This document shows, one piece after another, positions 2,702-62,611 of a stretch of 64,000 bases of DNA. Position 1 is the first letter of the stretch. Every line of letters starts with the position of its first letter. The translations under genes and the position numbers were made by a program. This DNA comes from Rhizobium sp. 32-5/1 (GTDB taxonomy: Bacteria; Pseudomonadota; Alphaproteobacteria; Rhizobiales; Rhizobiaceae). The notes beneath the pieces were generated by a model that worked only from the letters and a program-made list of their open reading frames with translations, was not told the origin of the DNA and made no database searches. The stretch is from assembly GCF_029537235.1 (NCBI RefSeq), contig NZ_CP120638.1, positions 1,922,001-1,986,000 of the forward strand, written 5' to 3'.

Positions 2702-4284
2702 ATGGCCGAAAGTCTCGCCGAGGCGGTTTCCCGCCGCCGCACCTTTGCTATTATCGCGCACCCGGATGCGGGCAAGACGACGCTCACCGAAAAGCTGCTG
2801 CTATTCGGCGGCGCGATCCAGCTTGCCGGCGAGGTGAAGGCCAAGAAGGACCGCATCCAGACGCGGTCCGACTGGATGAAGATCGAGCGCGAACGCGGCA
2901 TCTCGGTCGTCACTTCGGTGATGACCTTTGAGTATGGCGGCAATGTCTTCAACATCCTCGATACGCCCGGCCACGAGGACTTCGCGGACGACACCTATCG
3001 CACGCTGACGGCGGTGGACGCGGCCGTCATGGTCATCGACGCCGCCAAGGGCATCGAGCCGCGAACGCTGAAGCTGTTTGAAGTCTGCCGCATGCGCGAC
3101 ATCCCGATCATCACCTTCGTCAACAAGATGGACCGCGAAAGCCGCGACATCTTTGAGATACTCGACGAGGTCGAGGAGAAGCTGGCGCTCGATACGGCCC
3201 CGATCACCTGGCCGGTCGGGCGCTCGAAAGCTTCTGCGGCTCGTACAATCTCGTCGAAAACACCTTCCGTGGTTCTGACAAGCAGGTCGAGGCGCTCGCC
3301 GTCAACAGCCCGAAGAACGTCGCCGAAAACCTGCCGGAAAACGAACGCGCCACCTTTATCGACGAGTTGGAACTGGCACAGCAAGCCTGCAAGCCCTTCG
3401 ATCAAAAGGCCTTCCTCGAAGGCCACATGACGCCGGTCTTCTTCGGTTCAGCGCTACGCAATTTCGGGGTCCGCGATCTGATCAATGCACTTGGCGATTT
3501 CGCGCCGCCGCCGCGCGACCAGGTTGCCGACACCCGCACGGTGCATGCGACCGACGACAAGATGACGGCCTTCGTCTTCAAGATCCAGGCCAATATGGAC
3601 CCGAACCACCGGGACCGCATCGCCTTTGCCCGCATCTGCTCGGGCAAGCTTGAGCGCGGCATGAAGGCACGGCTGTCGCGCACCGGAAAACAGCTTGGCC
3701 TCACCGCGCCGCAGTTCTTCTTTGCCTCGCAGCGCCAGCTCGCCGATACGGCCTATGCCGGCGATGTGGTGGGCATTCCCAACCACGGCACGCTCAGGAT
3801 CGGAGACACGCTGACCGAGGGCGAACAGCTGGTGTTCCAGGGCGTTCCCAACTTCTCGCCGGAAATCCTGCGCCGCGTGCGGCTGGAGGATGCGATGAAG
3901 GCGAAAAAGCTCAAGGAAGCGCTGCAGCAGATGGCCGAGGAAGGCGTCGTGCAGCTGTTTTCACCCGAGGACGGGTCGCCCGCCATCGTCGGCGTTGTCG
4001 GCGCGCTGCAGCTCGACGTGTTGAAGGAGCGGCTGCAGGGGGAATATGGCCTGCCGGTGTCCTTCGAAATGGCCCGCTTCTCGGTCTGCCGCTGGATCTC
4101 GTCCGACAAGCCGGGTGAGATCGACCGCTTCGTCACCGCACGCCGCGGCGACATCGCCCGCGATCTCGACGGCGACCCGGTATTCCTGGCGCAGGACGGC
4201 TTCTCGCTGAACTACGAGTCCGAGCGCTGGAAAGACATCAAGATGGTTGCCATCAAAGAATATCACGTCGCCAAGGCGGCGTGA
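2702..4284 (+). CDS. prfC: Peptide chain release factor 3, frame interrupted by one missing base
   Basis: RF3 is a translational GTPase that recycles RF1 and RF2 from the ribosome after peptide release. The first frame carries the G-domain motifs AHPDAGKTTLTEK, ERGISVVTSVM, DTPGHEDF and NKMDRE. At about residue 175 the frame changes: TWPVGRSK should continue as SFCGSYNLVENTF, which is found in the other frame. Restoring one A in the AAA run at 3227-3229 rejoins the frames into a 527-residue protein, the normal RF3 size, ending KEYHVAKAA. I read this as a sequencing undercall and not as a pseudogene, because every other residue pattern is intact. Confidence 0.93.
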
Positions 4285-4309
4285 TATCAAGCAACGACCG
4301 AGCCGCCTT
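4273..4309. terminator. Possible hairpin between convergent prfC and the HAD gene
   Basis: AAGGCGGC and GCCGCCTT form an 8-base-pair inverted repeat with a 21-base loop. It overlaps the last codons of prfC and ends before the stop of the convergent HAD gene. There is no U-run, so this is only a weak candidate for transcript separation. Confidence 0.3.
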
Positions 4310-4312
4310 CGC

Positions 4313-5016
4313 CTAACGGCGATCAATCAGCATAAGATCGCCGTTTTCATCGATTGAGACTTCGATGCCGACATAGCCGGGAATGGTCGGGTGGCTGGTT
4401 TCGAAGGGTGCGTGTGCGTGGCGGTGATGACCATGACGTCGGCACCAGCGGCTTCGCCGGCGATGACACCGGCCGCGACATCCTCGAACACCAGGCAATC
4501 CCTGGCGTCGAAACCAACGCGTTTTGCGCCAAGCAGGTAACATTCCGGGCTCGGCTTGCCGCGCGAAACATCCTCGGCGATGACGATGAATTTCGGCTCC
4601 GGCAGGCCGGCTGCGGCGATGCGGACCTTGGCAAGCTCGCGTGGCGAGGAGGTGACGATCGCCCAGCGCTCCGGGGGCAGGCTTTTCAGGAATTCGATCG
4701 CTCCGGGCAGAGGTTTTACGCCTTCGACATCCTCCATCTCGCCCTGGCAGATGAGGGCGGATTCGACCTCCGGATCGACGCCCGGCAGGCCAAGCTGGCG
4801 GATTGTATCGACACCGCGCTTGCCGTGCATGGTCGGCAGAAAAGTCGCGACATCGAGCCCATGGCTTTCGGCCCAACGCCCCCAGACCCGCTCGGCCGCT
4901 TCGATGGAACTCAGCAGCGTGCCATCCATATCGAACAGGAAAGCGGAATATTTCTTGCCGAAAACCGGCGAAGTCGGGGAGGACAAGGGGCAAACTCCTG
5001 TGAAGAGGGCAGCCAC
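4313..5016 (-). CDS. HAD-superfamily hydrolase (sugar-phosphatase-like), C-terminus frameshifted
   Basis: The N-terminal frame has the HAD motifs FDMDGTLLSS (motif I, about residue 33), VTSSP (motif II), the Lys of RGKPSPECY (motif III) and VFEDVAAG (motif IV), with a small alpha-helical cap between I and II (subfamily IA). After VITATHTHP the frame changes: a PFETSHPTIPGYVGIEV tail ending LMLIDRR lies in the neighbouring frame. Restoring one G in the GGG at 4406-4408 joins them into a 234-residue phosphatase. The substrate is unknown; hexose or phosphoglycolate-like phosphates are typical of the subfamily. Confidence 0.85.
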
Positions 5017-5110
5017 CGAGGTGGCTGCGGTGCGAGCTAACCTCGAATAAGAGGATTCCCTCTTGAGATCAAATGCATATCGCCGCGCACCACAGCCGGG
5101 TTCCGCTTCT

Positions 5111-60593: not shown

Positions 60594-60601
60594 GTGACCT
60601 C

Positions 60602-61612
60602 ATGTTCGGAATAGACATCACCATTTTGGCTATCGTCGGTCTCGTCGCACTCGCAACGGCCGGGCTAGCCTATGGTGTGCTGTTCTCGCGCATTGAAACC
60701 GAGAAGAAGGCTGAGAGCCGCGTCCGCAAGGTCAAGTCCGCCGAGACGGACCGGGTGAAGATGAAGCAGGCGCGCGATCGCATGAGCGAAATGTCGAAGC
60801 GGCGCAAGTCGGTTCAGGATTCGCTGAAGGATCTCGAAAAGAAGCAGCAGGAAAAAGCCTCCCGAAAGACACCGGCCATGAAGGTAAGACTGGTTCAGGC
60901 CGGTCTTTCGATCTCCGTCCCGCAGTTTTACATGATGAGTTTTGTGCTGGGTCTGTTCATCTCCATTCTGGTCTTTCTTGGGACTGGAAATCCGCTGGTG
61001 GCTGGTGGCCTTCTTGTCGTCGTGACTGCCGGTCTTCCCCGCTGGCTGATCAATTTCCTGATCAAGCGGCGCGGCAAAAAGTTTCTTGAAGAATTTCCGA
61101 ATGCGCTTGATGTCATGGTTCGCTCCATCAAATCCGGTCTGCCGCTCAACGATGCAATCAGGTTGATCGCCAATGATGGCCAGGAACCAGTGAAATCGGA
61201 ATTCAAGCGCGTTATCGAAGCTCAGCAGCTGGGCCTTAATATCCCGGAAGCCTGCGCCCGCATGGTCAATGTTGTGCCACTGCCCGAGGTGAATTTCTTT
61301 GCCATTGTGATTGGCATCCAAGCGCAGGCCGGCGGCAATCTTTCCGAGGCCATCGGCAACCTGTCAAAGGTTCTGCGCGAGCGCCGAAAGATGAAATCCA
61401 AGGTTCAGGCATTGTCGATGGAAGCTAAGGCATCGGCCTGCATCATCGGCGCGCTTCCGTTCATCGTTTCTTTTCTCGTGTACGTAACCTCACCCGAATA
61501 CATGATGGTTCTGTTCACCGATCCTCGCGGCCACATGATTATGGGCGCATCCGCCGTCTGGATGAGCATCGGCATCTGGGTGATGCGCAACATGATCAAC
61601 TTCGACATTTGA
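60602..61612 (+). CDS. tadB: Flp pilus inner-membrane protein TadB
   Basis: A 336-residue type II secretion F-domain protein. One N-terminal helix is followed by a basic cytoplasmic stretch with many Lys/Arg (about 30-90), two central helices, and the T2SF motif FPNALDVMVRSIKSGLPLNDAIRLI, then LSEAIGNLSKVLRERRKMKSKVQALSMEAKASACII and C-terminal helices. Platform for the pilus with TadC; starts 8 bases after cpaF. Confidence 0.94.
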   Translation: MFGIDITILAIVGLVALATAGLAYGVLFSRIETEKKAESRVRKVKSAETDRVKMKQARDRMSEMSKRRKSVQDSLKDLEKKQQEKASRKTPAMKVRLVQAGLSISVPQFYMMSFVLGLFISILVFLGTGNPLVAGGLLVVVTAGLPRWLINFLIKRRGKKFLEEFPNALDVMVRSIKSGLPLNDAIRLIANDGQEPVKSEFKRVIEAQQLGLNIPEACARMVNVVPLPEVNFFAIVIGIQAQAGGNLSEAIGNLSKVLRERRKMKSKVQALSMEAKASACIIGALPFIVSFLVYVTSPEYMMVLFTDPRGHMIMGASAVWMSIGIWVMRNMINFDI

Positions 61613-61625
61613 AAGCGGTTTTGCC

Positions 61626-62611
61626 ATGAGCGAAGGCCTGATCAGCACACTGACCGATCCGAACGTGATTCTTGCGTTCCTCGTTTCGATCGCCGTCCTC
61701 GGCACGTTCTACACGCTGGCGGCTCCCTTTTTGAAGGGGCTAATCTTGAGAAGCGGATGAAGTCGGTGGCGACGGAGCGCGAACTGATCCGCGCCCGGGA
61801 GCGCGCACGTCTCAACACCGAGACTGTCGGCAATAAGGCGTCGCTGCGCGCGCAAAACAATCACTCGGTTCGTCAGATCGTTGATCGACTCAACCTGAAA
61901 CAGGCCCTGATGGACGAAAAGACGGTCAATCGTCTGAAGTCGGCCGGCTACCGCTCGCAGAACGCCCTCAACACCTTCCTGTTTGCTCGCTTCTGTCTGC
62001 CTTTCGTATTCTTGGCCGTCGGCGCATTCTATATTTTCGGTCTCGGCTACCTCGGTGAAAAACCTCTGCCGATGCGTATCCTGGCCACGATCACCATCGC
62101 CTATCTCGGTTTCTATGCACCGAATATCTTTGTTTCAAATGCTGTCTCCAAGCGCCAGCATTCGATCACCCGGGCATGGCCAGACGCGCTCGACCTGCTG
62201 CTGATCTGCGTCGAATCCGGTATCTCGATGGAAATCGCCATGAAGCGTGTGGCAGATGAAATCGCGGCGCAATCAACAGCGCTGGCTGAAGAACTCGTGC
62301 TGACTACGGCAGAACTCTCCTTCCTGCCGGATCGTCGCGTCGCGCTGGAAAACCTGGGCACCCGGACCGGTCTCGATTCGGTCAGGGCCGTGATGCAGGC
62401 GCTGATCCAGGCCGATCGCTACGGTACGCCGATCGCACAGGCGCTGCGAGTTCTCGCGCAGGAAAGCCGCGACCAGCGCATGAACGAGGCGGAAAAGAAG
62501 GCGGCCGCCCTGCCGCCGAAACTGACCGTACCGATGATCCTGTTCTTCCTGCCGGTCCTGATCGCCGTCATTCTCGGACCGGCTGGCATCCAGGTTTCCG
62601 ACAAGTTCTGA
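61626..62611 (+). CDS. tadC: Flp pilus inner-membrane protein TadC, frameshifted near the N-terminus
   Basis: Second T2SF-domain platform protein. The true start MSEGLISTLTDPNVILAFLVSIAVLGTFYTLAAPFLKG is in a different frame from the rest; restoring one G in GGGG at 61736-61739 continues it as ANLEKRMKSVATEREL. The core WPDALDLLLICVESGISMEIAMKRVADEI and GTPIAQALRVLAQESRDQRMNEAEKKAAALPPKLTVPMILFFLPVLI is diagnostic. 328 residues when corrected. Ends the pilus operon. Confidence 0.93.

Follow-up and report, generated by a model that had tools for sequence, protein, structure and literature searches.

According to the homopolymer results of Delahaye and Nicolas (2021, PMC8486125), nanopore sequencing reads runs of C and G worse and underestimates the length of runs above 4–5 bases. 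The account of systematic nanopore errors in the Homopolish paper (PMC8011154) describes them as mainly homopolymer insertions and deletions (indels) that shift the reading frame and produce many false pseudogenes, and it gives CheckM completeness values of approximately 81–95% for Medaka-polished nanopore genomes. In the description of the Pss508 draft in the Kastor paper (PMC12007338), 23.3% of the genes were called pseudogenes. The present study concerns a 64,000-nucleotide stretch of Rhizobium sp. 32-5/1 (C1:1922001–1986000, hereafter the window), in which 15 genes read as frameshifted. For one protein of the window, the nearest named loci belong to Rhizobiaceae. The genome comprises 5,621,108 bases in three contigs, and its completeness is 87.47%; completeness is 99–100% in 23 of 24 genomes of the same genus, the exception being G014 (78, six contigs).

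Single bases are missing from these genes in comparison with every aligned relative, and therefore the 15 genes appear frameshifted. We consider it very likely that the breaks are homopolymer undercalls in what is likely a long-read, and probably a nanopore-only, assembly, and hence that the organism itself probably carries these genes intact. Biologically, there is no real feature here, and the artefact belongs to a known class. We favor this reading because deletions greatly outnumber insertions, undercalling grows with run length, C/G runs fare worse, and long C/G runs are scarce, and also because substitutions are not in excess, no aligned relative shares a break, and dnaA is broken twice. 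From these patterns, we infer which platform was used, how current levels gave rise to the errors, and how long each run truly is.

Within the window, the comparison covered 51 gene models (53.7 kb, a few of them doubtful small open reading frames, ORFs), each aligned with two to five syntenic relatives drawn from G013, G023, G001, G003, and G018. G013 is collinear with most of positions 699–53634, with 82–89% DNA identity per block, G023 is collinear with most of positions 25523–63999, and the relatives used for comparison mostly share approximately 70–90% DNA identity with the window. The models were selected by third-position variation and replaced a first set that held wrong-frame shadow ORFs of this GC-rich DNA, owing to which some frame switches in the first, tblastn-based models were spurious. 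In the selected models, we found 21 one-base deletions and one insertion private to this genome, versus one private one-base indel each in G013, G023, and G003, three in G018, and none in G001 where these genomes were aligned. The initial annotation of the window had listed 17 one-base shortfalls in 15 genes, and all 17 were found again among the 21 deletions; its count was incomplete, because four further deletions, located between genes or close to gene starts, and an insertion in cpaE at approximately 58865 were absent from it. It had proposed closely related genomes as a check, and these speak for its reading: none of the two to five relatives aligned at any listed site has the same break, and the aligned relatives carry the base. 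When the relatives' proteins were compared with the window by tblastn, 13 of the 15 genes showed a frame switch at the noted sites; the breaks in the deacetylase gene and cpaA, which lie near a gene end, are visible only in the DNA alignments. The breaks in cpaC, cpaE, cpaF, and tadC were rechecked by reading three window frames next to the relative's protein. It had also been proposed that each frame is repaired by adding one more identical base to a run. The 13 sites that had been placed on a particular run are all uniform runs; in prfC, the HAD-family gene, the aminopeptidase gene, and one cpaC site, the missing base can be placed only within a few bases, and the repair there is plausible, not proven.

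The same excess of deletions is observed over a wider region (C1:1722001–2186000), in which 536 candidate models from two references were merged into 234 genes (239 kb) and aligned with G003, G001, and any further relatives available. The genes retained have a third-position share of at least 0.6, a length of at least 300 bases, an own sequence free of N, and a counterpart in this genome, G003, and G001. The tally skips gaps 30 or fewer columns from an alignment end and gaps with another gap four or fewer columns away, and breaks common to the genome and a relative cannot, by construction, enter the counts of private indels. In total, 75 clean one-base deletions, a few of which may be noise, and four insertions are private to this genome, versus seven deletions and ten insertions in G003 and four and five in G001, a background of 9–17 events that includes alignment noise. 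The deletions are spread over five sub-regions at 0.22–0.41 per kb, and the window has 0.375. A private one-base event occurs in 66 (28%) of the 234 conserved genes, in agreement with the earlier warning that reading such genes as pseudogenes misleads, and any private frame-breaking indel occurs in 80, compared with 20 in G003 and 15 in G001.

These observations bear on whether the breaks are real. A lineage that had recently lost many genes to frameshifts would carry its breaks in the deposited sequence, where they are indeed present, and very recent pseudogenes would show no extra substitutions yet. However, the imbalance of 75 to four, the privacy of every listed break, and the number of conserved genes hit, with dnaA hit twice, render this explanation highly improbable. 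The dnaA gene is essential, and a cell in which it is broken should not live. The affected genes show no extra substitutions, as the initial annotation had stated: the third-position share of private substitutions is 0.604 in the 66 genes with an event and 0.600 in the other 168, with a similar density, an observation that, taken alone, is compatible with very recent real breaks. Pseudogene decay was rejected as a candidate, because these shares give no sign of relaxed selection and essential genes are not spared, as dnaA illustrates.

The position of the deletions relative to homopolymers is consistent with undercalling. Each of the 75 deletions was assigned to the longest run no more than 6 nt away. 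For 69% of the gaps, a run of at least four bases is no more than 6 nt away, compared with 11% of positions drawn at random from these genes. The fraction of short runs rises with the inferred length, and C/G runs are undercalled more than A/T runs of equal length in the 234 genes: C/G runs are short in 13/597, 28/119, and 9/11 cases at inferred lengths of 4, 5, and 6 (2%, 24%, and 82%), and A/T runs in 9/792, 3/182, 7/29, 4/6, and 1/1 cases at lengths of 4–8 (1%, 2%, 24%, and 67% at 4–7). Replication slippage in a true mutator lineage, for example, after the loss of mismatch repair, also increases with run length. However, slippage should gain bases as well as lose them, whereas here 75 losses face four gains; of the 11 C/G runs with an inferred length of 6, nine lack one base; and it is established knowledge that a broken dnaA should be lethal; we therefore give a mutator very little credence. 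Programmed frameshifting or transcriptional slippage, through which the broken frames might still be read, would likewise fit the location of the breaks in or beside homopolymers. However, the nearby run comprises just three to five bases in 69 of the 75 events, the listed sites retain the additional base, and with it an open frame, in the relatives aligned there, and the genes hit are functionally unrelated, such that this explanation has a vanishingly small chance of applying here.

If homopolymers are undercalled, long C/G runs should be scarce in the assembly as a whole. We counted 13 C/G runs of at least six bases in 840 kb of this genome, versus 79 expected from seven pooled relatives (142 runs in 1.51 Mb, with the error-rich G014 excluded), and thus they are approximately six times rarer, with 15.5 versus 94 per Mb. 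By contig, the values are 8.7 and 25 per Mb in two samples of C1, 0 in C2 (80 kb), and 50 in C3, the last based on only three runs in 60 kb, which are too few to judge; the scarcity is visible in C1 and C2, and the aligned deletion counts cover C1 only. Together with the excess of deletions, the rise with run length, and the excess in C/G runs, this scarcity supports the undercall reading that the initial annotation had advanced. These errors probably also account for the low completeness score of this genome. In a comparison of one-base indels per kb, this genome has 0.30, and seven other relatives have 0–0.07. G014 has 0.97 (103 genes), with 61 insertions and 38 deletions; the signature of this second genome (C1:2280001–2480000) is different, in that insertions dominate and often place an additional base between a C and a G.

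The base that follows a run has a strong effect on whether it is short. For this analysis, every run was written as C or A. Runs of five C (C5) were short in 21/48 cases when the next base was T, in 7/36 when it was G, and in 0/35 when it was A, and runs of six A (A6) were short in 5/10 cases before G, 2/8 before T, and 0/11 before C. C5T and A6G are the worst combinations, C5G and A6T are between, and C5A and A6C were never short. The preceding base had no clear effect on undercalling (13/45, 16/72, and 6/31; permutation P 0.19). According to the signal description in PMC8486125, nanopore current levels follow the order T ≥ C ≥ A ≥ G, and reading is poorer for runs whose neighboring base has a similar level. 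When C5 and A6 are pooled by next base and ranked on this published contrast, the short fractions are 26/58, 9/44, and 0/46; this order holds among the 46 events in which the gap touches its run (18/50, 6/41, and 0/46), with A6T decreasing to 0/6. Ranking each case by the better of the contrasts on its two strands reproduces the observed next-base order. A run that crosses the pore would hardly change the current, and the basecaller would then count too few bases; where contrast at the run edge is low in the reads of both strands, both would give the same shortened run, which the consensus would then retain. We propose only tentatively, and with more doubt than conviction, that the fraction of short runs tracks the contrast in current at the next base on whichever strand has the larger contrast and that an assembly alone can reveal its platform and its wrong runs. 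If this proposal is true, a fingerprint obtained without reads could identify database genomes assembled from nanopore data alone and indicate which of their "pseudogenes" deserve the least trust.

Several observations weigh against the undercall reading or against parts of it. The current-contrast rule was applied post hoc and fits one flank only. According to the error description in PMC12007338, errors of PacBio circular consensus sequencing are likewise mostly homopolymer indels, and thus the artefact could be of the same class and stem from PacBio or from another low-coverage consensus with homopolymer indels. We consider another platform unlikely, because the far worse state of C/G than of A/T runs and the strong next-base dependence match the described nanopore signal, with the qualification that the PacBio side was not compared on data. 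The assignment of each gap to the longest nearby run inflates the inferred lengths, and the gap touches the assigned run in 46 of the 75 events. Two-base and longer non-triplet indels, in which error and noise are unsorted, are likewise more frequent in this genome than in G003 and G001: its 234 genes have seven two-base deletions, seven two-base insertions, ten longer deletions, and five longer insertions, compared with 3, 3, 1, and 1 in G003 and 0, 3, 1, and 2 in G001. The cpaE insertion lies outside any homopolymer. In C3, too little sequence was sampled for a deficit of long C/G runs to be visible. Such runs are also infrequent in G013, the nearest relative, which has 28 per Mb (four in the 141 kb examined; P 0.003 versus the pool), and part of the deficit may therefore be a property of the lineage. 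The four runs of G013 are all in one contig, and its aligned genes do not show the same kind of break.

The undercall reading has practical consequences. The affected genes should not be counted as pseudogenes, and pseudogene counts, gene losses, or pathway gaps derived from this species-representative genome would mislead, as dnaA and the pilus operon look broken in it.

The dnaA gene (26291–27860, + strand) has its two breaks at 27255–27258 and 27710–27714, both with a tblastn frame switch and a gap private to the window, and the relative's protein scores above the cut-off of TIGR00362. The match lengths are 1510, 1513, or 1516 bases, which are 1 mod 3, in all ten full-span matches of the same genus (query of 1508 bases; the other seven of 17 matches are not full-span), and the window length is 2 mod 3. 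In the best 120 of 6318 DnaA relatives, 119 have at least 478 aa, and one has 348 aa.

Most other breaks outside the pilus operon are likewise supported by both a tblastn frame switch and a window-only gap. This is the case for prfC (2702–4284, +), which is one base short at or beside the run 3227–3229, with the gap placed at 3231, and whose relative's protein is RF3, above the model cut-off; for a HAD-family hydrolase gene (4313–4986, −), one base short at or beside 4406–4408, with Hydrolase/HAD_2 domains on the relative's protein; and for an RpiR-family regulator gene (12902–13755, −; initially named iolR), in which the run 13046–13049 is one base short and the relative's protein has HTH_6 and SIS. 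A MacB-like ABC exporter gene (17542–19487, −) changes frame at 18769–18773; the relative's protein contains MacB_PCD, ABC_tran, and FtsX, and the NCBIfam MacB model scores below its cut-off. In an M17 aminopeptidase gene (27941 to approximately 29364, −), the base is missing at 28665–28666 or in the adjoining run of three, and PF00883 and PF21337 were detected on the window fragment. The gene of an extracellular solute-binding protein (32615–33648, −; SBP_bac_8) is broken near its C-terminus at 32664–32668 (two relatives). An ABC transporter ATPase gene (41596–43130, +; PF00005, NF047930 below cut-off) and a permease gene (43127–44256, +; NF047929 below cut-off) are broken at 42602–42605 and 44080–44084. 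A histone-deacetylase-family gene (31508 to approximately 32540, −; PF00850) is broken near its start codon at 32527–32531, where the evidence is a window-only gap against two relatives; its window ORF has 351 aa and 114 of the best 120 of 8000 relatives have 342–347 aa, lengths that say little on the break.

In the pilus operon, all genes lie on the + strand. The cpaA prepilin peptidase gene (53943–54466; PF01478 on the relative's protein) has a window-only gap at 54430–54433. The cpaC secretin gene (approximately 55446–57014; PF00263 on the relative's protein) is broken in a run of six A at 55480–55485, as indicated by the gap and the three-frame reading, and again at 56418–56423, with the gap placed at 56418, the likeliest run at 56421–56423, and additional tblastn support. 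Tblastn, gap, and three-frame reading also agree on cpaF, an ATPase gene (59113–60593; PF00437 on the relative's protein) broken at 59302–59307; on tadC (61626–62611; PF00482 on the relative's protein), broken in adjoining C and T runs at 61725–61732; and on the deletion at 58316–58320 in cpaE (57792–59081). The name cpaE is based on gene order, the relative's protein having no Pfam match at 1e-5. The one-base insertion at 58864–58866 restores the frame after this deletion and was recovered by tblastn, alignment, and three-frame reading; it is private to this genome, which has GATCTCGC where the relatives mostly have GATTCGC. A methylation motif was considered for this insertion (GATTC versus GATCTC, with a similar event in G014) and was set aside, as the motif counts had no marked difference.

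The remaining four deletions, which are intergenic or close to gene starts, do not necessarily interrupt a frame. Each is a window-only one-base gap: at 12789–12797 (approximately 12793, −), near a gene start, where the ORF 10868–12856 is open; at 32605–32612 (approximately 32609, −), intergenic and poorly aligned with two relatives; at 41580–41586 (approximately 41583, +), upstream of the ATPase start at 41596; and at 55454–55459 (approximately 55456, +), at the cpaC start, which is coding only if a longer N-terminus is real. The first and the last lie in GGAGG-like stretches before likely gene starts, and such errors may blur ribosome-binding sites. Elsewhere in the window, positions 38365–41322 (−) encode a 985-aa protein in which a phosphotransferase (APH) domain is fused to a class-III aminotransferase, with relatives across Rhizobiaceae, and Rfam yielded no match in the window at gathering scores.

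The errors in this genome resemble those described for nanopore data. The dominance of deletions, the increase above 4–5 bases, the worse state of C/G runs, and the influence of surrounding bases are shared with the homopolymer-length errors in PMC8486125; however, that description concerns reads, whereas our pattern was obtained from a finished assembly, and it is from this pattern that the platform is deduced. The frame-shifting homopolymer indels, excess pseudogene calls, and lowered completeness described for Homopolish (PMC8011154) are also observed, although truth genomes served as the reference there and relatives alone serve here. With the Kastor case (PMC12007338), as far as its description extends, our genome shares frameshift indels that are exposed by relatives and deletions that follow homopolymers; the organism and the tool are different, and no correction was applied here.

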